Both the position numbers and the translations under genes were made by a program. A stretch of DNA of 64,000 bases from a virus: IMG/VR virus record IMGVR_UViG_3300050821_012250, positions 1-64,000 of that record. One strand, 5' to 3'. Under the pieces are notes generated by a model, which saw nothing but the letters and a program-made list of their open reading frames with translations, had not been told where the DNA came from and ran no database searches. Positions within the stretch are counted from its first letter, which is position 1; every line of letters starts with the position of its first letter. Of this stretch, positions 2,951 to 59,423 are shown one piece after another.

Positions 2951-3543
2951 GGGTTTTTGGGGGGTTCCTTGGTCGCCGTCATGGTTGCTACGATGTCCAT
3001 TATCGAGTCGCGGTAGTTAGCCATCGCATATTGCTGGTACTCGGTGTTCCGCACGCCCAGCTCGGGCCGCATCGTGTATCCCCAAGTGCAATTTAGATTG
3101 CATGAATATCCCTTCGGATTGTGAGCGATATCGACGTGAGGGGCATTCTGATTGCGCCACAAACGATCCAAGTAAAAAAATCCGAACTCGCTGAAGGGCT
3201 CTGCATGACTGGGATCACCGTAGTGACGGTTAGATGCCCAATGCGGAAAGATCAATGTGCATTGAGCCATTGGTTTCAACACCCTATATATCTCGTTGAA
3301 AAAATGGACGCGTTCGAAGCGACCATTCATGTTAGTAAGGTGCTCTACAAAGTGGCTGGAATGAATCTCGGATACCGTCGAGTCTTCGAACGGCCATCGT
3401 TCTGTACCAGCGTCGCAAACGATATCCACGCCGTCGAACTTAATGCGATCCAGGCCGGTCCAGTCAGGGCCTTTTTTATGCGGACCACATCCGATATCCA
3501 ACTTAATTTCTGGTGACTCGTCTGATTTTACTACTGCGTTCAT
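2947..3543 (-). CDS. SAM-dependent methyltransferase (class I, type-11-like)
   Basis: A 198-residue protein with the class I methyltransferase motif I LDIGCGPHKKG at residues 16-26, followed by an acidic motif II region and a later DHxEHL-like SSHFVEHL, then RVLKPMAQCTLIFPHW, typical of methyltransf_11-type enzymes. Substrate unknown. It sits between a glycosyltransferase module and the neck genes. A second related methyltransferase lies at 32487-33188; both share the pattern GDPSH after the RxLKP block. Start ATG follows directly on the TAA of the 51-residue gene. Confidence 0.8.
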   Translation of the reverse strand: MNAVVKSDESPEIKLDIGCGPHKKGPDWTGLDRIKFDGVDIVCDAGTERWPFEDSTVSEIHSSHFVEHLTNMNGRFERVHFFNEIYRVLKPMAQCTLIFPHWASNRHYGDPSHAEPFSEFGFFYLDRLWRNQNAPHVDIAHNPKGYSCNLNCTWGYTMRPELGVRNTEYQQYAMANYRDSIMDIVATMTATKEPPKNP

Positions 3544-3699
3544 TTATTTGTTTCCGATAAATGCGATGGCCCTAAGAAGTTTCCATCCGATGCGGCGGTC
3601 GTAATTCAAAGGATGGCAATAACTCCAATACATATGTTCGCGATGTAGCTTCTGCGCGATCACAAATGCAATCCGGCGAAATAGCGGCAGAATTTTCAC
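3544..3699 (-). CDS. small basic protein, 51 aa, unknown
   Basis: The GTG at 3699-3697 overlaps the glycosyltransferase stop in a GTGA arrangement, so this is a separate coupled gene and not a frameshifted tail of the glycosyltransferase. The product is basic and partly hydrophobic (ILPLFRRIAFVIAQKL near the start). Its stop abuts the methyltransferase ATG. No family recognised. Confidence 0.55.
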   Translation of the reverse strand: MKILPLFRRIAFVIAQKLHREHMYWSYCHPLNYDRRIGWKLLRAIAFIGNK

Positions 3700-4451
3700 C
3701 AGCAGATCCCTTCCGGTCCATATGCCCCAGAAAAGTCCAGATGGCCTACGCGCACCGAACAATCGATACCACAACGATATCCATACTTGCGCGCTTCCGA
3801 CCAAAAAGCGAGATCCTGAGTCCCGATTCCTTGGCCATTTCCTCCATTCAACGTTCTGAATAATGGCCGTTTGATTCGTTCATCCTTAAACATTTTTATT
3901 CGCCACAAGTTGAATCCCATACTAGTTCCACAACACTCAACAAGTCCTCCATTGACATCAGGAGGCTGCGGACGGAAATTCAAACCTGTTGGATCTTTTG
4001 GATCACCCCAGACGTGGGGCGCATTGATGCCGCCCGGTCCTTTACAAAAATATAGGCCACCTATACAACTCAACTCTGGATGTTGCTCCATACGCTCCAG
4101 AAGTTTGATCACGCCATCAGGCGGAGGAGTGTTATCGCTCTCGATGGTAAGTATGTATTCCCACTGGCTCAACTCAGGATGAGCCAAAATGCCTTCGATG
4201 GCCTGCGAATAAGCGTCTCCAACCTCCATACCCTGCGCCAGAATTCTAACGACACCATTGTTAGGTGGGAATGCCAAATTCCAATGCGATAAAGCTACCT
4301 TCGCAGGAATCATGTCGGCGGCTGGCAAGATAACCACGATTCGTTGCTTTCTCCATGAACCGCCTTTCATTATTTGAGCGCGAACGTGATTCAGATCCTT
4401 ACTATGCTCCCCTCCAAGATCCTGCACCACCAACGCCGGCTTATTCCCCAT
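3696..4451 (-). CDS. GT-A fold glycosyltransferase-like protein
   Basis: A 251-residue protein with features of phage glycosyltransferase family 2-like proteins: a beta strand RIVVILPAADM, an ILTIESDNTPPP segment that takes the place of the DxD metal site, and a C-terminal VGHLDFSGAYG segment common at the end of such proteins. It probably transfers a sugar to a virion protein or host-derived polymer, but the acceptor is unknown. Start chosen at the ATG that overlaps the upstream TGA (TGATG) rather than four codons earlier. Confidence 0.7.
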   Translation of the reverse strand: MGNKPALVVQDLGGEHSKDLNHVRAQIMKGGSWRKQRIVVILPAADMIPAKVALSHWNLAFPPNNGVVRILAQGMEVGDAYSQAIEGILAHPELSQWEYILTIESDNTPPPDGVIKLLERMEQHPELSCIGGLYFCKGPGGINAPHVWGDPKDPTGLNFRPQPPDVNGGLVECCGTSMGFNLWRIKMFKDERIKRPLFRTLNGGNGQGIGTQDLAFWSEARKYGYRCGIDCSVRVGHLDFSGAYGPEGICW

Positions 4452-12478: not shown

Positions 12479-13330
12479 TCAGTCGGTAACGTGCTTCCAG
12501 ACTTTGCGTCTGCGGATGTTGGAAACGAGAACGTTGGAGATTCCATATTTCTGAGCCAAGATCTTCCCTTGCTCGATACTTTTACGGATTTCTCTCACAA
12601 TTTCCTCCGTGATTTTGCTTCCGATTCCACGTCTATGCGCGCCACCGCGAGGATTTTTAGCGATGTGGCTCACTTCTACGTGAGCCCAAGAAACTCTATT
12701 CTTGATGCTCGTGATCGTAGTAGCAGCCACTCCATAATCAGCCGCGATTTCAGCATACGTTCGTGAATCTGAGAGAATTTTCCTAACTTTCTCTTCATTG
12801 AGTTGGGCCAGATGAGAATTCTCTCCCGACTGATCATGTCGGCGCCCTTTCCTATTCATATCTGCATGGTTGTCGGCTACAGTTCCAAGCCACAAATGCG
12901 CTGGATTGACACATGTGGGATTGTCACAGGTATGACAGACAAGTTTGTCAGGAGGCACTGGCTTGCCACTATGTAGAGCAAAAGAAAATCGATGGGCTTT
13001 CGTATACCTCACTCCGTGAATTATTCCGTCAAAACGCCCATACCCTTGACGGTCCACGCAGTAGGTCCATAACCAACAGCCCTCTGTCTTTTTATGCTGT
13101 GCTTCGAATCGTTCGATGGCACTCCTGCCTCTGAACATCGCAGCATTCATTTTAGGTTCAAACGGCGAGCCAGATTTCCTAGCTCGCCGCAAATGCTCAC
13201 TGCATAAGCCAGAAGCCTTCACAGGGAGGTCGCACCCTTTGCATTGACACACGCTTACGGTTTCCACATTTCGTTCTCGGTTATTAAGACCGAGACATTT
13301 TGCCGAAAACCTTGGACGAATGCAATGCAT
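12479..13330 (-). CDS. HNH homing endonuclease (HNH_3-like), free-standing
   Basis: A 283-residue protein. Residues 28-50 hold a small Cys-rich knuckle (CQCKGCDLP then CSEHLRRARKSG); residues 75-160 carry the HNH core with CWLWTYCVDRQGYGRF, KAHRFSFALHSG, LVCHTCDNPTCVNPAHLWLGT and DNHADMNRKGR; the C-terminal third contains two helix-turn-helix-like repeats (VRKILSDSRTYAEIAADYGV and VREIRKSIEQGKILAQKYGI) likely to read DNA. It lies 32 nt after the coat gene, whose intron has no ORF, so it could promote movement of that locus (inference). No clear ribosome site at the first ATG; a GTG 21 codons in is an alternative start. Confidence 0.85.
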   Translation of the reverse strand: MHCIRPRFSAKCLGLNNRERNVETVSVCQCKGCDLPVKASGLCSEHLRRARKSGSPFEPKMNAAMFRGRSAIERFEAQHKKTEGCWLWTYCVDRQGYGRFDGIIHGVRYTKAHRFSFALHSGKPVPPDKLVCHTCDNPTCVNPAHLWLGTVADNHADMNRKGRRHDQSGENSHLAQLNEEKVRKILSDSRTYAEIAADYGVAATTITSIKNRVSWAHVEVSHIAKNPRGGAHRRGIGSKITEEIVREIRKSIEQGKILAQKYGISNVLVSNIRRRKVWKHVTD

Positions 13331-16758: not shown

Positions 16759-16955
16759 GGCGTGCTGTCGGATTTCTTCTCGGCCTTCTCAACAAATCGC
16801 ATGGCGCTCAAAGCAGCCAACACACCTTTACGAAAATATTCAGCGGCTTGGCCTCCGGGAAATGGATCACTGGGCAATCCGCAACGGCAGCAGCGACAAT
16901 CTCCGCCCGTCTTGAATTCCTCGCAATCGCAAACCGGACATTTGCCCCAAATCAT
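16755..16955 (-). CDS. small zinc-ribbon protein, 66 aa
   Basis: The N-terminus has CPVCDCEE and CRCCRCGLP, six to seven cysteines in 20 residues, consistent with a zinc knuckle. The start overlaps the portal stop by 4 nt. Function unknown. Confidence 0.55.
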   Translation of the reverse strand: MIWGKCPVCDCEEFKTGGDCRCCRCGLPSDPFPGGQAAEYFRKGVLAALSAMRFVEKAEKKSDSTP

Positions 16956-19900
16956 TTTTCGGCCTTCTCAGCCTTCTCGGCCGCATGTTCTGCGGCGACT
17001 TCAGCCGCCTCTTTCGCATGGCCGCCCTGCACGTGCGAATCAATGATCTTGCCCGTCGCGCCGATCTCAGCCACTGCGATGGAGGCTTGCGCTTTGGTGT
17101 GCGTGTCCATCGCGCTCGTATGCGCCTTCAATGCCGCATCATTCGCCTTGACCTGTGTCTGCTGATCGACCTTATACTTCTCCAAGGCGATCCAGTTATT
17201 CTCAATATTGGTCTTCAGCTTCAATTCTTGCTGCAGACCTTGGATTTCCTGTTGCGCCTGTTGCAACTGCTGCTGCATGGCCGTGACGATACCCTGCGCC
17301 TGTTTCGGCAGCGATTTGATGGCCTTGTCGAGACCCTGCGGGGTGAGTGGCGCGAGGCGATCGGCCAGGTCTGATGCACCGGGCCAGTCCATGTTGCGCA
17401 CCACGAGATCGGCGCCGACTTTAACGACCGGCTCGCCCAATGGTGTCCGCATGAGATCCAACATGGAATCGACCGCCTCCATGCGCTTGGTCTCAAAACC
17501 GGGGCCGGTATCCATCACGACATCGTAACGGCCCACTGTGAGGTCGTTCTTGATCTTCGCGACCGCAGGATCTATCGGAGGCTGTCCGAGCAGCGGCAAT
17601 TCTGCGCCTGCGCCGCCTTCATTCGGATCTTGCGGCTGATTAATGCCGACCACTTCCGGCACGCCATCCTCGCCGATGATGCGCTGCATGCGTGCTTCGC
17701 TGTAGTAGTACGGAATCAGGTCGAGAATGATGCGGCCGGTATGGCAGATCGACTTGGTTTGATTGTCGTAGTACTGGAAGTGGCCGATGTCACTCAACGC
17801 TTGGCGAGCACGTAAGGCTTTACCGGAAACGACCTGACCAGGCGCGTCCTGACCGGGCTCGTGCGGCATGCCGGCGAGGATCATCAGATCCTTAAGGGCG
17901 GACTCTGCAGCCTGCACAAAGCCCGCTGGAACGGCCACCGGCTCAACACGCTGCGGCGGTGGCAATGGCGTTTTACTGCCATCAGGTTGCTCGATAAAAT
18001 CGGGTGTATAAGTCAGCTTCGAATAGGGAACTTGATTGGCATCATTCCATTCCGGGTGACCATCGAAATGATTTGTGGTTCCCACCCATGGAGCACGCGG
18101 AGCAAGGGCGATTACCTCTGTTTCGCAGGTATTGTGAGTAGGAATCATCGCCTCGCCACATAGGAATAGATGCGATGGTGAATCGATAGCTAAACATTGC
18201 ACTGGCACCGATGCGATACGTTCGACTTTGTCGATGCGATGTCGATGCGTGCGCCGAATCTGTTCTGGCCGTTTACCAAGTCCTGCAAGCTTTCTGGCCA
18301 TACGAAATATCGGTTTTCGTGTGGTGAAGGAAAATTGATATGACTCGGAACATTTCGATTGATAGCCACCAGGCATTTCGCAAAGTCGCGCTGCGCGCTT
18401 AATGACTATAGCTTTTATGCCAATGGAACGAAGTAATTCAGCGAGTCCTTGTACAATTTGTAGATTTATATTTGTGAAACTGCATTGACCTGCAGCCGAC
18501 ACTGATCCATCAGTATCCATTAAACCCTGAATCAAAGCTAATCGTTGCTCATGCGATGCTCTCAAATATTTCTGAGGAATGTGCTTGCGACCTAGCAAGC
18601 CTTCTTCGATCAGTATTTGACGAATTCCATAGACGGAGAAAGTCGGGGCTTTTGTCTCATCTTTTTGCTTATGGCATGGGCCAACAGAATATCCACAGTC
18701 TGATAAATGTTTTCGCATCTCTTCAACATCATCTTTTCCGTGGCAGATGCTTGTGGAAACTGCTGTTCCATTTCCCAACCAGACGCCTAATAGATATGGA
18801 TCTAACGGCAAATCGATCTTTGGCAAATCAAGCGGTGCTGTGACATAAATGTAATCCTTTCGCGGTTGTAGATCCTTTGTTAGAACGGACTTCCTTAGCC
18901 ATTCAAAACTATGAGCATTGCGGGGTCCACGCTGCTCTACTGGCCATTCATGTTCACCACTAGCTATTACTTGGCTACCGTCGTCGAATGTGATGCGATA
19001 GCAATCCTTGTGGACGTAGATCGGACTTTTACCGAGTACTTTGCACGGTTTGCCATGCTCATTGAACAACATGTCGCCGGACTTGACTTCGCCCATCGTG
19101 GTCCAGCCGGTTGGCGTCGGCAATGGTGTATCCAATGACAGATGACGCCAGTAATTCACCATGCGAGCAACATCAATCAAATCCCGCACCATCCCCTTGC
19201 GCCGGATCTGCCCATTCAGATCCATCACGTTGCCTTCGCAACGCACGACTGGAATCCACTTCCCCGGCAGATCAACTGATTCAACAACCGTCGACCCGTT
19301 CAATCGATGCCATTCCAATTGGCGCCGATACGCGGGGCGGCGAATCTCATCGCCACGAAGATTCTTCGCGATCTGCTGCCCTTCCTTCATCTGACTCAGA
19401 TAAACGGACTCGCCAGAAGTGAGTTTGACTAGCGTGTCTTTCTTCTTGACGATGCGGAAATATTCCGCGAGCCGGATTTCCTCTTTCGTGCGCCATTCAA
19501 GGCTCATATCGCCTTGGCCACCATCACGCCATTCGGTTTCAGCTTCCTCGGGATACTTCCGCTCAAATTCCGACCGCTTCATGGTCTCGGTGATCAAACA
19601 CCACTCAGCATCCTCACCCGCCGGCAAAATAGAGCCGGGGTCCATGTAGACCGTGAACGGATTGCGGATCGGCGCAATCTTCAATTCCTGCTCAAAGCTA
19701 TCCTCCGCGATGTACTCCGACAGAATGCGCCAGTAACCCCAGCCCATCTTGACGGCGGACTCACCACCGATGTCGTAAGCCGTCGCCCCTTCCGAGCGTT
19801 GCTCGATGTGCCGGATCAGTCCGCCGATTTTCTGCGCAAGATCGACATCCGCGCCATCACCGACCGGATGGACTTTGATGCGCGGACGCTGCATGCGCAT

Positions 19901-20149
19901 GTTGTTCACGACGCGCTTGACCATCGCACGCGTGTGATTGATGGTCAGCGTCGGGCGTCGGGAGACCTTGCGCTGATTGTAGATGTCCGTGGGCCATTGC
20001 TGGCCGTCTTCGAACTCGAGATCGATGACCGCGGCCTGGCGGTTCGCGCCTTCGGACTGTTCTGCGATGCGCAGGCGTTCGGAGGCTTCCTGGAAAATTT
20101 CGTCGTTGCTGGTTGCAGGCTGGTGAGAGCCTGACGGAATTACGGGCAA
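16952..20149 (-). CDS. portal protein, P22 gp1-like, interrupted by an intein
   Basis: A 1065-residue precursor. Removing residues 336-673 (intein) leaves 727 residues, matching P22 gp1 (725). N-extein: VIDLEFEDGQQWP, RPTLTINHTRAMVKRVVNNM and RNPFTVYMDPGS are typical portal segments; the extein junction rebuilds RMVNYWR-TCETEVIALAPRAPWVG, the conserved stretch of this family. C-extein: a long helical barrel-like tail with a Gln-rich coiled coil (about residues 900-980) and a Lys/Ala/Glu C-terminus. The portal dodecamer forms the DNA channel at the head vertex and nucleates assembly with the scaffold. Function requires protein splicing. Confidence 0.92.
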   Translation of the reverse strand: MPVIPSGSHQPATSNDEIFQEASERLRIAEQSEGANRQAAVIDLEFEDGQQWPTDIYNQRKVSRRPTLTINHTRAMVKRVVNNMRMQRPRIKVHPVGDGADVDLAQKIGGLIRHIEQRSEGATAYDIGGESAVKMGWGYWRILSEYIAEDSFEQELKIAPIRNPFTVYMDPGSILPAGEDAEWCLITETMKRSEFERKYPEEAETEWRDGGQGDMSLEWRTKEEIRLAEYFRIVKKKDTLVKLTSGESVYLSQMKEGQQIAKNLRGDEIRRPAYRRQLEWHRLNGSTVVESVDLPGKWIPVVRCEGNVMDLNGQIRRKGMVRDLIDVARMVNYWRHLSLDTPLPTPTGWTTMGEVKSGDMLFNEHGKPCKVLGKSPIYVHKDCYRITFDDGSQVIASGEHEWPVEQRGPRNAHSFEWLRKSVLTKDLQPRKDYIYVTAPLDLPKIDLPLDPYLLGVWLGNGTAVSTSICHGKDDVEEMRKHLSDCGYSVGPCHKQKDETKAPTFSVYGIRQILIEEGLLGRKHIPQKYLRASHEQRLALIQGLMDTDGSVSAAGQCSFTNINLQIVQGLAELLRSIGIKAIVIKRAARLCEMPGGYQSKCSESYQFSFTTRKPIFRMARKLAGLGKRPEQIRRTHRHRIDKVERIASVPVQCLAIDSPSHLFLCGEAMIPTHNTCETEVIALAPRAPWVGTTNHFDGHPEWNDANQVPYSKLTYTPDFIEQPDGSKTPLPPPQRVEPVAVPAGFVQAAESALKDLMILAGMPHEPGQDAPGQVVSGKALRARQALSDIGHFQYYDNQTKSICHTGRIILDLIPYYYSEARMQRIIGEDGVPEVVGINQPQDPNEGGAGAELPLLGQPPIDPAVAKIKNDLTVGRYDVVMDTGPGFETKRMEAVDSMLDLMRTPLGEPVVKVGADLVVRNMDWPGASDLADRLAPLTPQGLDKAIKSLPKQAQGIVTAMQQQLQQAQQEIQGLQQELKLKTNIENNWIALEKYKVDQQTQVKANDAALKAHTSAMDTHTKAQASIAVAEIGATGKIIDSHVQGGHAKEAAEVAAEHAAEKAEKAEK
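18131..19144 (-). mobile_element. class 3-type intein with LAGLIDADG endonuclease, 338 aa
   Basis: Residues 336-673 of the portal precursor. Block A HLSLDTPLPTPTGW begins with His where class 1 inteins have Cys or Ser. Block B ASGEHEW has its His at 400 and Trp at 402; block F VQCLAID has Cys 652; block G ends IPTHN (Asn 673) with Thr at +1. His1 plus this Trp/Cys/Thr set is the WCT signature of class 3 inteins, where the block F Cys starts the reaction. Two LAGLIDADG-like helices, LLGVWLGNG (453-461) and LIQGLMDTDG (539-548), mark a homing endonuclease. Both extein edges agree with the expected portal sequence. Confidence 0.9.
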
Positions 20150-26295: not shown

Positions 26296-26495
26296 TTTTC
26301 CTCCACTTCGGTCGGTACATCGCGCCACTCGAAGGTTTCCCGAGTGAACAACTTTGATATCGGATCATAATGTCTGATTCGACATCGCTGTTGGAGCGCT
26401 CTCGTGCGAACCGCCAGACCACTCATCGGACCCGCGCTTTCTCGATCTAGAAAGCGAAGTTGTGCCATTGGTTCTACTTCGAAAATAGCTTTCAT
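26292..26495 (-). CDS. 67-aa protein, unknown
   Basis: A mixed alpha/beta-looking product with acidic ends and an Arg-rich middle (RTRALQQRCRIRHYDPISK). Coupled by 4-nt overlaps on both sides. No family recognised. Confidence 0.45.
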   Translation of the reverse strand: MKAIFEVEPMAQLRFLDRESAGPMSGLAVRTRALQQRCRIRHYDPISKLFTRETFEWRDVPTEVEEK

Positions 26496-27298
26496 TTCGC
26501 GCGTATCACCATGCCGATCAGATCATTTGATAGCATTTCATGCCGTTCAACCCTTCTATCGGTCCAAGTCTCTTCGCTGTTTTCAGCTGTGAGCCACAGT
26601 GGGGACTCTTCCAATACCGCAACAATATCTTCCTCACGCATCACCAACAATTCCTCGCCGTCTATCTGAATCTGAGTACCGAGACTGAACCAGATGCGAT
26701 CTCCGGCTTTCACATCGAGCGGAACGACTGCGCCGCTTTCGAGAAGCTTGCCGGGACCGATTGCAATGATCTCGCCACGCAAATAAGGCTCGCGCTCCGT
26801 ATCTACAATCTGGATGCCACCGCGCGAAACGGTCTCGCGTTCCAAGCGCCTCACAATCACGCGATCGTGTAGGGGGCGACTCTCGCCAGTTTCGGCATCG
26901 AATACAATCGCCACATCGGCTTCACGTGTCGAAATGATTACGTCTTTGCCGCCCCAGAGCACACGAGTGAACAAATATCCGTTTAATTCGAGGCCGCCAA
27001 GATCGACGACATCACCGGGCTGAATATCACACGGGGTGAAGTGTTTTGAGTCCCACGACTTCGTGCGCTTGCCTTTCGGCCCGTCATATCGCTTCTGGAA
27101 ATGACCGGGCCCGACAGCCAATACTTTCCCGCGAACTGGCTGACCCCGATAAACCAGCTCCATCATCGTCCCATGATCGATATCCAGCGGCTCAACGACG
27201 ATATGATCGCGCAGACAGCGGATGGTTTCGTCTTCGCGGACAAAGGTTAACAGGGCGTTGGACACGCGGACGCCGCGATCGATGAGGGGTTGGTTCAC
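26492..27298 (-). CDS. tandem GroES-like co-chaperonin (two Cpn10 domains)
   Basis: A 268-residue protein containing two Cpn10 folds. Domain 2 (about residues 142-230) begins PLHDRVIVRRLE, contains the GGI tripeptide (160-162) where GroES has its GroEL-binding mobile loop, and shows RGEIIAIGPGK, VKAGDRIWF and ELLVMREEDIVAVLE, all canonical. Domain 1 (about 29-126) starts LRDHIVVEPLDI and has RGKVLAVGPG and QPGDVVDL, but its loop (DHGTMMELVYRGQ) lacks GGI. GroES is about 97 residues, so this is a fusion in which probably only one domain docks on host GroEL. A likely use is enlarging or adapting the cage for coat folding, as T4 gp31 does. Confidence 0.85.
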   Translation of the reverse strand: MNQPLIDRGVRVSNALLTFVREDETIRCLRDHIVVEPLDIDHGTMMELVYRGQPVRGKVLAVGPGHFQKRYDGPKGKRTKSWDSKHFTPCDIQPGDVVDLGGLELNGYLFTRVLWGGKDVIISTREADVAIVFDAETGESRPLHDRVIVRRLERETVSRGGIQIVDTEREPYLRGEIIAIGPGKLLESGAVVPLDVKAGDRIWFSLGTQIQIDGEELLVMREEDIVAVLEESPLWLTAENSEETWTDRRVERHEMLSNDLIGMVIRAK

Positions 27299-28898: not shown

Positions 28899-29290
28899 GG
28901 CTCAATCCTCAACAGCGCATATCCTTTCGGCAGCAAATGCCATGGCACTTTGCCGCGCGCCAGAATTATAGACCTGCAGGTATCGCAGATTTCGAAACGA
29001 TAAATATTCTTCATGCCGAAGGTTTGTTGGAAGCGTACTGCACCAGGTTTGTTGTGTTTGCATTTCAATTGCTTCGCATTGGGAATTGACACCAGCGGCA
29101 CAGGCGGCTCCGGATCTTCCTCCACAATCGTCTCATCAGACTTTACCAGTCCCTTGGCGCCATCTTTCGAGATGGAAGAGCCTGCAATTTCCCACGGGCA
29201 TGATGAATCCGCGCGGCGATATAAGCTCCACGCATAACCGCCCCAGACGTTGGGATCGAACCGGATCGCGACTTCAGTCCCGGTGCTCAT
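28895..29290 (-). CDS. 131-aa protein downstream of tnpB, unknown
   Basis: Start taken at the ATG at 29290, which overlaps the tnpB stop (ATGA). Residues 80-110 hold CKHNKPGAVRF and CDTCRS, a possible zinc site. Function unknown. Confidence 0.5.
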   Translation of the reverse strand: MSTGTEVAIRFDPNVWGGYAWSLYRRADSSCPWEIAGSSISKDGAKGLVKSDETIVEEDPEPPVPLVSIPNAKQLKCKHNKPGAVRFQQTFGMKNIYRFEICDTCRSIILARGKVPWHLLPKGYALLRIEP

Positions 29291-30465
29291 GTCGCCGACC
29301 TCACCGATTCTGCTCCTATCTCGCGACGGCGCTTGCGTAGCCTGCTCGATGGAATCGATAAGTCCGAAGACTCGTTCCCGCATACGGAGGCTCGACACCT
29401 GAGCCCGGTTCTGAGAATGTTCCTCGCGGCATTCACGTCGCGATCGTGCTCGGTACCACACTCCGAGCATTCCCAGTGCCTTACAACGAGTTGTCCTATT
29501 CCCGCCGGGCCGGAAAGGCCTCCGCAGTTTCCACAGACTCGCGTTGTGAATCTCTCGCTGACGATTTCCACAAACCTGCCGGCGTGCTCGCCTTTATACT
29601 GCAGTTGTGTTTTGAGCATCCCCCAACCGGAATCCAAAACGGATTTCGCCATCTTGGTTTTGGCTAGCTTGGAACTACTCACATCGCCAATAATAATTTT
29701 CTGATAACTATCAATAATCGCTCTTGAGAACTTATGCAGGGCATCGGCACGACAGCGCGCTGCTTTGCGGTGAAACCGCTTCGCCTGGCGCCGATGACCG
29801 CGACGCTGAGCGTTGGCAAGTCGCTCAGCATAGCGATGAGTCCACTTGCCGGCTTCCAATCGCTCGCCGTCACTAGTAACGGCGATATCTTTTAGGCCCA
29901 GGTCAATGCCGACAGACTCATTTGGCGCGATTGTTATCTCGGCCGTTTCGATGATCGGCAGGCATAGCCACCAATCCCCCATGGCGTCCTGCGCAAAGCA
30001 GCCTTGCTGCCACTTTGCCCCTTCGAGTCGATCGGACTCGAACACTCGAAAAGTCTTGCCGGCGAAACGCAGCGCATTTCCTTTGCGCTTGAGACTCTTT
30101 GTCTTAAACGGTATCCAACCTAACGACCGTCTCGATCCACGGCTTACGCGCCAATGCAGTTGAGTGCGCTTTGCCTGTTTGCGCTTCTGCGCATATTCAC
30201 CGTTGATGCGCTGAATAGTGTCTGCGCCAATACGCACAAAGTGTTCTGTGGCGCCAGCACTCAGGTTGTTGAGATCAAATCCACTCAACCATTCCCGGGG
30301 TCCTACAAAAGGCTGCGCTGCCTTGGCGCTCACCTCATTTGCCCAATTCCAAACTTGGTTGACTTCAATCGCAGCAGCATTGAGCCACGCATAGGACTCA
30401 GAACGGACCTTCAACTTCAGGGTACGCGTAAACGAGAGCGGCATGAGCGTATTATCTACTCTCAT
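29287..30465 (-). CDS. tnpB: TnpB (IS200/IS605 OrfB-like) RNA-guided nuclease
   Basis: A 392-residue TnpB. RuvC-I Asp188 lies in GIDLGLKDIAV; the zinc ribbon has CGNCGG (311, 314) and CSEC (333, 336); RuvC-III Asp343 lies in DRDVNAARNIL. The usual RuvC-II Glu (ExL after a hydrophobic strand) is replaced by Gly260 in IIIGDVSSSKLAKTK, as in TnpB subgroups with a rearranged catalytic site, where a later Glu (perhaps Glu304 in IVSERFTT) serves instead. No tnpA or element ends are visible, and its start and stop each overlap a neighbouring phage gene by 4 nt. A guide RNA would normally overlap the 3' end; none can be confirmed by eye. Confidence 0.88.
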   Translation of the reverse strand: MRVDNTLMPLSFTRTLKLKVRSESYAWLNAAAIEVNQVWNWANEVSAKAAQPFVGPREWLSGFDLNNLSAGATEHFVRIGADTIQRINGEYAQKRKQAKRTQLHWRVSRGSRRSLGWIPFKTKSLKRKGNALRFAGKTFRVFESDRLEGAKWQQGCFAQDAMGDWWLCLPIIETAEITIAPNESVGIDLGLKDIAVTSDGERLEAGKWTHRYAERLANAQRRGHRRQAKRFHRKAARCRADALHKFSRAIIDSYQKIIIGDVSSSKLAKTKMAKSVLDSGWGMLKTQLQYKGEHAGRFVEIVSERFTTRVCGNCGGLSGPAGIGQLVVRHWECSECGTEHDRDVNAARNILRTGLRCRASVCGNESSDLSIPSSRLRKRRREIGAESVRSAT

Positions 30466-51650: not shown

Positions 51651-52424
51651 ATGAAACTGAAAATCACAGCTCTCATGCTGCTTGTCATCACTCTCTCGGG
51701 TTGCGGCGTCCACACGGTTGAGACGGGGCATCGCGGTATCAAGGTCAGCTTTGGGCAGGTAGAGGGTGAGCCGCTCACAGAGGGACTTTATTTCACCGAT
51801 CCGTTCACGACCACCATTGAGCAAATGGATATTCGCACGTTGCGATGGGATGGAAAAGCCGCGACCCATACCAAGGATGTTCAATCGGCTACAATCACCT
51901 TCTCGCTGAACTATGCATTGCGTCCAGAGATGGTTGGAACCACTTACAAGACTGTGGGTGAAAATTGGGCCAATACCTTGGTAGAACCCGTAGTACTTCA
52001 GGATCTCAAAGACGAAATCGCAAAATGGGATGCTGTTGATTTAGTGGCCAGTCGCCAAATCGCATCTGATCATATTCAGGCTGCGGTGATGAGCGATCTT
52101 GGCAAAAAAGGCGTTACCGTTTCTGGATTTTTTCTCACCGATGTGGAGTTTTCTGGCGGATTCACCGCTTCCATTGAACGCAAGGTCATCGCAGCACAGG
52201 ATGCGTTGGCGGCGCAGAATAAGACTGAGCAAGTTAAACAAGAACAGGCGCAAGAATTGTTGCGTGCTCAGACTGCTGCTCAATCTATGAAGATCCGCGC
52301 CGATGCACTTTCGCAAAATCCCAAGCTTGTCGAATGGGAAGCGGTGCAGAAATGGAACGGTGTGTTGCCACAATATTCGATGGGCGGTACGTTGCCGTTT
52401 ATTCAAATGCCGGCGGCGCATTGA
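51651..52424 (+). CDS. SPFH/prohibitin-family lipoprotein, 257 aa
   Basis: Begins MKLKITALMLLVITLSGCGV, a lipoprotein signal with lipobox LSGC. The mature part shows the Band-7/SPFH pattern: VETGHRGIKVSFGQVEGEPL, GLYFTDPFTTTIEQMDIRT, then a DLVASRQIASDHI helix and an Ala/Gln/Glu-rich coiled coil (QNKTEQVKQEQAQELLRAQT). Prohibitin-like proteins form membrane scaffolds. Phage-encoded SPFH proteins are known, with unclear function, perhaps membrane stabilisation or control of proteases. Confidence 0.82.
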   Translation: MKLKITALMLLVITLSGCGVHTVETGHRGIKVSFGQVEGEPLTEGLYFTDPFTTTIEQMDIRTLRWDGKAATHTKDVQSATITFSLNYALRPEMVGTTYKTVGENWANTLVEPVVLQDLKDEIAKWDAVDLVASRQIASDHIQAAVMSDLGKKGVTVSGFFLTDVEFSGGFTASIERKVIAAQDALAAQNKTEQVKQEQAQELLRAQTAAQSMKIRADALSQNPKLVEWEAVQKWNGVLPQYSMGGTLPFIQMPAAH

Positions 52425-52425
52425 T

Positions 52426-53286
52426 ATGTATACCATCATTGATAGCGACAACTACGCCGCCGCCAGCATCGAAACGATGTTCTTTCCCGGTGGCGAGCCG
52501 CACGTAAAAGTGTCGGCTTCCATTTCGGGCGATGTGCTGCTATTTCTCAAATTGCGCACATGGGATGATGTTGGACTCGCCAGTTGCCTGCTCCATGCAT
52601 TCGCGAACATTGATTCGATCAAGAAACTTGAGGTCTTCATTCCTTATTTTCCTGCAGCGCGTCAGGATAAGGTCAAACGCAATGCGGAGAATGATCCCTA
52701 CTCATCATTGACAGTTGCGATCATGGGCGATTTATTGACCGGCGGTTGGAGCGCCACGGTATTCGATGTCCATTCTCCAGAAGCTTTCGAATGGGCTGAA
52801 ATCGGGCGCAATCTGATGCCTGAGGACTTGCCGATCGAAATTCAACCGGATGTCGTCGGCATCATCGCACCCGATGAAGGAGCGGCTGATCGCGCGGAGT
52901 CTTTCCGCAGAGCGTTTTATCCGCATGCGTCGCTTGTCCAATGTTCCAAGCGGCGCGATCCGACGACAGGGCGACTCTCAGGTTATGAGATGCCGAAGCT
53001 GCCAGCCATGGGTCGTTATATCATCGTGGATGACATTTGCGATGGCGGTGGCACATTCAATCTCCTGGTCGATGAGTTCATTGAGGACGAATTCGGACTC
53101 GGGAGTCAGCTGGAGCTCTTCGTGTCACACGGTATTTTCTCGAAGGGACTCGACAATATTTCGCCAGTGATTGAGCGTATTACGACGACCGACAGCTGGT
53201 GCAAATTGAAGCCGACTAGCCGATTGTCGATTATTCCGCTTCGTACGCTATTCGATAAAATCATGGGAGTAAATGCGGGTGCTTGA
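52426..53286 (+). CDS. PRPP-synthetase-like protein, candidate ADP-ribose pyrophosphate synthetase (Adps-like)
   Basis: A 286-residue ribose-phosphate pyrophosphokinase homologue (cellular Prs is about 315). IPYFPAARQDKVKR (72-85) fits the catalytic loop and VDDICDGGGTF (201-211) is the PRPP-binding loop. Normally the enzyme makes PRPP; in the phage NARP1 pathway a close homologue (Adps) transfers pyrophosphate to ADP-ribose. The stop overlaps the start of the NAMPT-like gene by 14 nt, the pair found in NARP1. Which substrate this one prefers cannot be read from the sequence. Confidence 0.85.
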   Translation: MYTIIDSDNYAAASIETMFFPGGEPHVKVSASISGDVLLFLKLRTWDDVGLASCLLHAFANIDSIKKLEVFIPYFPAARQDKVKRNAENDPYSSLTVAIMGDLLTGGWSATVFDVHSPEAFEWAEIGRNLMPEDLPIEIQPDVVGIIAPDEGAADRAESFRRAFYPHASLVQCSKRRDPTTGRLSGYEMPKLPAMGRYIIVDDICDGGGTFNLLVDEFIEDEFGLGSQLELFVSHGIFSKGLDNISPVIERITTTDSWCKLKPTSRLSIIPLRTLFDKIMGVNAGA

Positions 53287-54751
53287 TTTCATCCAATGTA
53301 CCGATTTTTACAAGGTCGACCATCGCCGGCAAATGACTCCGGGCACAACCCGCATTCTGGAGAATTGGACGCCAAGGGCTTCCCGCATTTCCGGTGTTGA
53401 TTCAGCCGTATTCTTCGGACTTCGCGCACATCTGAAATATGATTTGACCGATCTGGCGAATCGAACATTCTTCAGCCGCTCGCGATCCGACGTATTGTAC
53501 GACTATCAAATGATGTTGGATAATTCTTTGGGTACGACAGAAATCGGGACAGAACACATCGGCGCCCTCCATGATCTTCAGTACTTGCCATTGGAATATT
53601 GCGCCATCCCAGAAGGCACATCTGTTCCATTGCGAGTCCCCCAATTCACGGTCGAAAACACCCATGATGATTTCGCGTGGGTCGCGGGTTATCTGGAAAC
53701 TCTGACTTCCTCGCGCGTCTGGCTGGCATGTCAAAGCGCTACGACGGCTAAGAGATATCGGAAGCTGTTGGATCATTATGCCAAAGTAACCGGTGGGCCT
53801 GCGGAATTCGTCGATTGGCAAGGACATGATTTCAGTTTCCGCGGTATGGGAAGTCCCGAAGCGGCTGCATTTTCAGGTGCTGGCCATTTATTGAGTTTCA
53901 CCGGCACTGACACGATTCCGGCAATCAAGCTTTTGCACGATGCTTATGATGGCGACGGATTGATCGGTGGTTCAGTAGCTGCCACAGAGCATATGGTCAT
54001 GTGCCTCGGCGGCAAAGAAGATGAAATACAAACATTCGATCGCCTCCTCAACCTCTATCCGAAAGGAATTGTTTCTGTCGTCTCCGACACGTGGGATCTC
54101 TGGAAAGTTATAACGGAAACACTTCCGGCGCTGAAAGACAAAATAATGGTCCGGGATGGAAAACTCGTGATCCGTCCTGACAGCGGTGATCCGGTATTGA
54201 TTTTGACCGGGGACGCGACCAAGAGTGGACCCGCGCGCAAAGGAGTAATCGAACTTCTATGGGATCTTTTCGGTGGCACCATCAATGCGCTCGGATTTAA
54301 ACAGCTCGATTCGCATATCGGTGCGATTTACGGCGATTCCATCACTGAGGCACGTGCGCTTCAAATATGCGATCGATTGATGGATAAGGGATTTGCTTCG
54401 ACCAACGTTGTCTTGGGAATAGGCTCGTATAACTACCAATATGTCACCCGCGATACCAGCGGTTATGCAATGAAAGCAACCTGGGCTCTCGTAAATGGAG
54501 AAGAGCGCTTTCTATTCAAAGATCCAATCACAGATGATGGGACGAAACGATCCGCGCGCGGTCGATTGGCTGTCGTGGATCATCGAACTCGTGGGGGCGC
54601 CATTGAACTCATCGATGGTCTTTCATTAGAAGAATGGAAAAACTTTTCAATAATGACCGGCTTTGAAAATATGCTTGTGCCAGTCTGGCGCAACGGCCGA
54701 TTTCTACGACGCGAAACGCTGCCTGAAATTCGCGCCAGAGTTAGAGCATGA
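53273..54751 (+). CDS. NAMPT-like transferase, candidate nicotinamide ADP-ribose transferase (Namat-like)
   Basis: A 492-residue nicotinamide phosphoribosyltransferase homologue (human NAMPT is 491). Hallmarks: HDFSFRGMGSPEAA (185-198), LLSFTGTDTIPAI (206-218), SVAATEH with the catalytic-type His240, VSDTWDLW (270-277) and RPDSGDP (301-307). NAMPT makes NMN from nicotinamide and PRPP; in NARP1 the phage Namat joins nicotinamide to ADPR-PP, giving NAD+ directly. The pairing with a PRPP-synthetase homologue supports a role in restoring NAD+ after Thoeris- or DSR-type defences deplete it (inference from the known pathway). Confidence 0.88.
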   Translation: MRVLDFIQCTDFYKVDHRRQMTPGTTRILENWTPRASRISGVDSAVFFGLRAHLKYDLTDLANRTFFSRSRSDVLYDYQMMLDNSLGTTEIGTEHIGALHDLQYLPLEYCAIPEGTSVPLRVPQFTVENTHDDFAWVAGYLETLTSSRVWLACQSATTAKRYRKLLDHYAKVTGGPAEFVDWQGHDFSFRGMGSPEAAAFSGAGHLLSFTGTDTIPAIKLLHDAYDGDGLIGGSVAATEHMVMCLGGKEDEIQTFDRLLNLYPKGIVSVVSDTWDLWKVITETLPALKDKIMVRDGKLVIRPDSGDPVLILTGDATKSGPARKGVIELLWDLFGGTINALGFKQLDSHIGAIYGDSITEARALQICDRLMDKGFASTNVVLGIGSYNYQYVTRDTSGYAMKATWALVNGEERFLFKDPITDDGTKRSARGRLAVVDHRTRGGAIELIDGLSLEEWKNFSIMTGFENMLVPVWRNGRFLRRETLPEIRARVRA

Positions 54752-58640: not shown

Positions 58641-58873
58641 TGCGCATGCTCACACCAGAACTCGTCCATCAGATCCGCACGGCAAGGCTCACGGATACGG
58701 AATGGAGCAGGCGCCTAGATGTGTCGGTCAGGACGATACGGGATGCACGGGTGGGGAATACGTGGCCGAGCGTTGCGACGCCGCCGGATATCAGGATTCG
58801 GGTCGGAAATGGACGTGGACAGAAGGCGGCTGCGAATCTGACGCGAGAGCGGTGGAGTTATTTCCGTGAGTGA
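58640..58873 (+). CDS. small helix-turn-helix protein, 77 aa
   Basis: MLTPELVHQIRTARLTDTEW then SRRLDVSVRTIRDARVGNTW: the same helix-turn-helix type that ends many HNH homing proteins, including the one at 12479-13330. It directly precedes an HNH gene and overlaps it by 8 nt, so the two may work as a pair. Confidence 0.6.
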   Translation: MRMLTPELVHQIRTARLTDTEWSRRLDVSVRTIRDARVGNTWPSVATPPDIRIRVGNGRGQKAAANLTRERWSYFRE

Positions 58874-59423
58874 TGACATTCTGGCCGATGAGCGCCTCAA
58901 ACGTGATACGTGGGGACGGCTCACGGAAGCTCAGTACAACGAGCACTGGCTCGCTCGCGTGCGGGAAAAGTCCGTCGTGACCGAATCCGGCTGCCTCGTG
59001 TGGCAAGGATTTCTGCAGACCAAGGGATACGGCGGAACGACTTACCGAGGGCGCAACGTCGCCATTCATCGGCAAGCCTTCAAGATCCTAAAGAAGGCCG
59101 ACTTGCGCACGGAGGATTTCGTCTGCCACACCTGCGATACGCGCGCGTGCTGGAACATCGATCATCTTTGGCTGGGGAAGCCAGCCGATAACTCCCTCGA
59201 CATGGTCAAGAAGGGCCGCTGTCATGAGTGGACGCGAACGCATTGCCCTAAGGGGCATCCCTACGACGAAGAGAACACGATCCACCGAATAGCGAAGTCC
59301 GGCCGCCCAGCTCGTGGCTGCAAAGCCTGCCTCAAACTGACACATCAAACGCCTTCCTATATCGAATGGCGGCGCAATTACCAACGCAGACGACGCGCTG
59401 AAAAACGCGGAGCGAGTCAATGA
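58866..59423 (+). CDS. HNH endonuclease (HNH_3-like), 185 aa
   Basis: Residues 40-125 hold the HNH core: CLVWQGFLQTKGYGGTTYRG, HRQAFKILKKADLRTEDFVC, HTCDTRACWNIDHLWLGKPA and DNSLDMVKKGRC. The C-terminal part carries a further CPKGHPYDEENT/CKAC zinc-like module. A free-standing homing endonuclease is most likely. It is coupled to genes on both sides. Confidence 0.82.
   Translation: MSDDILADERLKRDTWGRLTEAQYNEHWLARVREKSVVTESGCLVWQGFLQTKGYGGTTYRGRNVAIHRQAFKILKKADLRTEDFVCHTCDTRACWNIDHLWLGKPADNSLDMVKKGRCHEWTRTHCPKGHPYDEENTIHRIAKSGRPARGCKACLKLTHQTPSYIEWRRNYQRRRRAEKRGASQ

Follow-up and report, generated by a model that had tools for sequence, protein, structure and literature searches.

A class 3-type intein with a histidine at position 1, predicted to be self-splicing, interrupts a P22-type phage portal protein

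The portal of a phage is the ring by which DNA passes into the head. The portal gene of this phage carries an insert of 338 codons that we read, with a probability of about 0.93, as a class 3-type intein, class 3 being an established though less frequent type. In this reading, the intein excises itself post-translationally from the portal precursor, was acquired horizontally and has an endonuclease that is probably impaired in homing. The boundaries of the insert, its class signature, its fold, its relatives and the signs of its acquisition were all established computationally. The analysis covered a window of 64,000 nucleotides that is part of a viral record of 73,381 bases. The portal gene and its parts are laid out in the window as follows.

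16952-20149, minus strand: portal precursor open reading frame, 1065 aa with a TTG start; P22-type portal (PF16510, PHROG 156)
19145-20149, minus strand: N-extein, 335 aa, C-terminal end ...NYWR; contiguous with the C-extein in the intein-free loci L014-L092
18131-19144, minus strand: class 3-type intein with a LAGLIDADG endonuclease domain, 338 aa
16952-18130, minus strand: C-extein, 392 aa plus stop, starting TCETEV

Using Pfam, we found PF16510 in the open reading frame at 16952-20149 (-) with an E-value of 6.5e-137, and LAGLIDADG domains inside the same frame. In the 73,381-base record the PF16510 match is split by the insert, covering positions 2-312 on one side of it and 314-585 (of 594) on the other; once the insert is skipped the profile spans the whole portal, as in P22-type portals. 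The original prediction of a portal precursor with 338 extra residues at 18131-19144 was exact in both coordinates and reading, and the 1065-aa frame is open throughout. The insert translates as 338 open residues (HLSLDTP...MIPTHN, that is, HLSLDTPLPTPTGW ... CGEAMIPTHN). It has a GC content of 0.461 and a GC3 of 0.408 compared with 0.57-0.58 and 0.66-0.69 for the exteins, a contrast that fits acquisition of the insert from elsewhere. A profile search of the 73,381-base record found no second portal gene. Thus, an unspliced precursor would leave the phage without another portal. When searched alone, the intein (portal residues 334-676) matches the PHROG terminase profiles phrog_36964, 15 and 19299, because those families evidently contain class 3 inteins. 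Intein-bearing portals are easily misnamed in this way, and automatic annotation may label them terminases.

To place the boundaries, we scanned IMG/VR with the N-extein, took the best 80 loci and looked for the intein in each by tblastn. It was present in one of these 80 loci (L013), on a contig that matches the window at 99.97% identity over 11 kb and carries a near-identical intein. The exteins are joined without a gap at 335/674 in nearly all of the N-extein loci that contain the C-extein. The intein-free junctions read ...NYW-x/T or similar, and all 32 listed have Thr at +1. These empty sites indicate that the intein interrupts a conserved stretch of the portal and that Thr(+1) is a portal residue. 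Thus, the predicted boundaries, with the junction YWR/T, are right, and the insertion lies in the conserved stretch YWR/TCETE as had been proposed. The closest intein-free relative, L014, is 86% and 83% identical to the window on the two sides of the site, and the N-exteins of L014 and L015, the nearest intein-free relatives, are 86% identical to that of the window portal. Over the 30 bases just before the insertion, identity to the window falls to 46% in L014 and 36% in L015, from 80-93% just upstream. We considered co-conversion of flanking DNA as the cause and rejected it, since the window sequence agrees with the consensus of the family (RM-NYWR), from which L014 and L015 deviate. Their divergence before the empty site could be an escape from homing or the trace of an intein loss.

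The class assignment rests on the following positions, where residue numbers are those of the intein unless stated otherwise.

19142-19144, minus strand: intein position 1, His (portal residue 336), non-nucleophilic
18950-18952, minus strand: block B His65, present in 211 of 211 relatives; the catalytic-triad base in solved class 3 inteins (MchDnaB1 His65)
18944-18946, minus strand: Trp67 of the Trp-Cys-Thr (WCT) triplet, block B:12 (portal Trp402), 211 of 211 relatives; MsmDnaBi1 Trp67
18194-18196, minus strand: Cys317 of the triplet, block F:4 (portal Cys652), predicted first nucleophile, 211 of 211 relatives; corresponds to MchDnaB1 Cys124
18137-18139, minus strand: Thr336 of the triplet, block G:5 (portal Thr671), 210 of 211 relatives; MchDnaB1 Thr143
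18131-18136, minus strand: penultimate His337 (205 of 211 relatives) and terminal Asn338 (211 of 211)
18128-18130, minus strand: Thr(+1), predicted second nucleophile, portal residue 674; Thr in the 32 listed intein-free portals

The best matches in the PDB are class 3 inteins (phmmer; 6rix, 2.9e-29; 6riy, 1.4e-28; 6bs8, 2.4e-28). Residues 2-70 and 303-338 align to 6rix and 6bs8, with blocks A, B, F and G free of gaps at both ends. The triplet that defines the class occupies B:12, F:4 and G:5 (PMC5050341), and corresponds to Trp67, Cys124 and Thr143, together with His65, in MchDnaB1 (PMC7664689) and to Trp67, Cys118 and Thr137 in MsmDnaBi1 (PMC6195587). In the window intein, Trp67 aligns with Trp67 of both 6rix and 6bs8, Cys317 aligns with Cys124 of MchDnaB1, and Thr336 lies in the PTHN end at G:5. 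Position 1, as fixed by the empty-site homologues, is the non-nucleophilic His1, and the +1 residue is Thr, one of the two usual in class 3 (Thr or Ser, rarely Cys). The original prediction of blocks A, B, F and G, two LAGLIDADG motifs and a His rather than Cys or Ser at position 1 was borne out by this alignment and by Pfam, and so was its class 3 assignment, with the block B Trp and block F Cys at the WCT positions. It had named Trp402, Cys652 and Thr(+1) as the defining set; the Trp and the Cys stand, and the Thr of the triplet is Thr336 instead. Both positions hold Thr, and the class is unchanged since Thr336 supplies G:5. A chance origin of the intein signature is excluded.

A scan with a five-member alignment of portal inteins yielded relatives, and we assembled 211 distinct ones from phage records, viral contigs and bacterial genomes, a set biased by its search seeds toward inteins that keep LAGLIDADG motifs; a single-protein scan of the genome contigs found none. 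His65, Trp67, Cys317 and Asn338 are invariant among the 211, and Thr336 is present in 210. The one relative lacking the block G Thr (L214) has Val there and ends in PVHN. The +1 residue is Ser in 111, Thr in 98 and Cys in 2. Position 1 is Ala in 152, Pro in 26, Gly in 11, Leu in 5, Cys in 4, Gln, Arg and Met in 3 each, and Ser, Glu and Asp in 1 each; the window alone has His, which agrees with the earlier statement that this residue is rare in the class. Because position 1 is the freest of the active region, this rarity carries little weight, and His1 is probably without effect on the chemistry. At position 62 the window intein has Ser, where 182 of the 211 have Asp (DxxH). The N-exteins of 145 relatives have GK at their C-terminal end, as a P-loop does. 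Phages commonly carry class 3 inteins. None of the listed matches in named phages is annotated as a portal, and in the open-access literature, to which the search was confined, we found no account of a portal interrupted by a class 3 intein.

An AlphaFold2 model built from 40 window and locus sequences had a mean pLDDT of 95.1 and a pTM of 0.92. Using Foldseek, we matched it over its full length to PI-SceI (TMq up to 0.78, at 14-15% identity) and to the class 3 mini-inteins MchDnaB1 and MsmDnaB1 (TMt 0.86-0.90). Pfam finds LAGLIDADG_3 (E 2.8e-07) and Hom_end (E 5.1e-05) in the insert. As modeled, the insert is a HINT fold joined to a LAGLIDADG endonuclease, and both LAGLIDADG motifs lie within the fold.

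18767-18793, minus strand: first LAGLIDADG motif, LLGVWLGNG, with Asn125 in place of the usual catalytic Asp
18506-18535, minus strand: second LAGLIDADG motif, LIQGLMDTDG, with Asp212 kept

An acidic residue thus ends the second motif and not the first, a point that the original prediction did not raise. The first-motif Asp is present in 196 of the 211 relatives, including all ten sister inteins in portals, and ten relatives have Asn. This Asp is a ligand of the catalytic metal in LAGLIDADG enzymes. With Asn125 in its place, reduced DNA cleavage or nicking would be expected, and we infer such a defect as likely from the sequence. Homing activity is doubtful; the endonuclease is probably impaired in homing while its fold is kept.

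The window portal is not the only one to be interrupted in this way. Ten further P22-type portals (L106-L110, L186-L189 and L193) carry related class 3 inteins, inserted at the site used in the window portal or at one adjacent to it. These inteins are 45-52% identical to that of the window. Their portals are about 28-39% identical to the window portal, below the identity of the inteins, and many intein-free portals are closer to it. This points to horizontal movement of the intein, and we infer that it was acquired horizontally, at a site in P22-type portals that it shares with related class 3 inteins. In a tree of 80 inteins, six P22-portal inteins group with support of 99/95. When all eleven were included and L192 was added, the P22-portal inteins formed one clade in 6% of bootstrap trees, and a wider group of 13 rows in the same tree had support of 88/87. 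Strict monophyly of the P22-portal inteins was dropped after this eleven-member tree, and we claim relatedness instead. We also rejected L192 and L111 as portals; their exteins have no portal match and weak terminase matches, that of L192 being terminase-like. Two HK97-type portals (PF04860), L127 at 2998-3990 and L182 at 2956-3963, contain class 3 inteins of another lineage. As these fall outside the P22-portal group, portals probably acquired class 3 inteins on more than one occasion. There is no second divergent copy of the window intein, and dN/dS therefore comes from the sister pair L109/L110 only, where a dN of 0.010 and a dS of 0.127 indicate purifying selection in the intein. Thus, the window intein is one of at least a dozen class 3 inteins found in portal genes, and its predicted mechanism is a known one.

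The window intein shares the HINT fold, His65, Trp67 and Cys48, and the block F Cys, the block G Thr and the terminal His-Asn at matching positions, with the DnaB-1 inteins of Mycobacterium chimaera (6rix, 6riy) and M. smegmatis (6bs8). Those are mini-inteins of a helicase that lack an endonuclease and have Ala1 and Ser+1, whereas the window intein has His1, Thr+1, a portal host and a LAGLIDADG domain. Phage class 3 inteins in terminases, DnaB helicases and Cas4/RecB-type exonucleases (for example in Streptomyces phage Frankenweenie, Mycobacterium phage Dexes and Brevibacterium phage Rousseau) are 30-40% identical to it over the whole length and have the same invariant WCT. They differ in their hosts, in mostly lying directly behind a P-loop-like GK and in mostly having Ala at position 1. 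Its sisters in P22-type portals have Pro, Leu, Cys or Asp there. PI-SceI, the yeast VMA intein, resembles it in how the HINT and LAGLIDADG domains are arranged overall; it is a class 1 intein with Cys1 and both catalytic Asp residues. Portal inteins of cluster C1 mycobacteriophages likewise lie in a portal, a likeness drawn from their published description (PMC5050341).

In studied class 3 inteins, the block F Cys attacks the N-terminal junction, the acyl group passes to the +1 residue, Asn cyclizes and the ester rearranges (PMC5222942). The window intein has all the residues needed for this. Cys317, aided by His65 and Thr336, would attack the Arg335-His336 peptide bond (portal numbering), leaving the N-extein held on Cys317 as a branched thioester. 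The N-extein would then be transferred to Thr(+1), and cyclization of Asn338, helped by His337, would release the intein. Rearrangement of the ester to a normal bond would give a 727-residue portal with the junction ...NYWR-TCETE.... His1 would be merely a non-nucleophilic residue that the class permits.

A different outcome would be expected if the intein had decayed, with splicing lost, or poor and giving mainly cleavage, and the portal broken or slow to form. Asn125 suggests that decay of the endonuclease has begun, none of the 211 relatives shares His1, and Ser62 is unusual. Every splicing residue is nonetheless intact in an open frame of 1065 aa, the same intein recurs in a second contig that is 99.97% identical over 11 kb, and the record holds no other portal, which makes decay very unlikely. 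The absence of a nucleophile at position 1 is also a feature of class 2, so a class 2 or class 1 intein might merely resemble class 3 and use, for example, a direct attack by Thr+1. The complete WCT set with His65, the class 3 identity of the nearest solved relatives and the position in the tree among class 3 relatives leave almost no room for this. Hardly any probability attaches either to an insertion that does not splice and is retained as an extra domain of the mature portal. No observation speaks for it. Such a domain would split the conserved portal fold near its midpoint (PF16510 position ~312 of 594), and the insert has a complete intein active site and relatives in many unrelated proteins. 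We therefore favor a class 3-type intein that splices.

A further cysteine bears on how such splicing might be controlled.

19001-19003, minus strand: Cys48, which an ungapped alignment to 6bs8 places at the redox-partner Cys of MsmDnaBi1

In MsmDnaBi1, a disulfide between the catalytic Cys and Cys48 halts splicing, and Cys48 was described as non-conserved (PMC6195587). Of the 211 class 3 relatives, 181 have Cys at this position, all eleven inteins of P22-type portals among them. By analogy, a Cys48-Cys317 disulfide might form under oxidation and stop splicing of the portal. We consider this rather unlikely, and conservation of Cys48 may be structural; if it were true, the cell's redox state would gate assembly of the phage head. 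Another reading, weaker than redox control, is that His1 itself might take part in catalysis.

Several other genes were observed in the window. Genes for a ribose-phosphate pyrophosphokinase and a nicotinamide phosphoribosyltransferase lie side by side at 52303-54751 (+), a phage NAD salvage pair. A 268-aa protein encoded at 26492-27298 (-) has a GroES-like co-chaperonin region at residues 141-230, and a transposase gene (phrog_506) lies at 29287-30465 (-) within the phage record. Free-standing HNH endonuclease genes are found at 12479-13330 (-), adjoining the major head protein gene, and at 58866-59423 (+).

These results show P22-type portals, which are structural proteins without an ATPase fold, to be a site of insertion for one group of class 3 inteins. 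By contrast, most of the class 3 relatives examined here lie behind a P-loop-like GK, and the portal niche differs from this. A natural class 3 active site with His1, and with Ser for the usual block B Asp, could serve to test how free position 1 is. The interest of this intein lies in its portal niche and its His1, not in a new mechanism.
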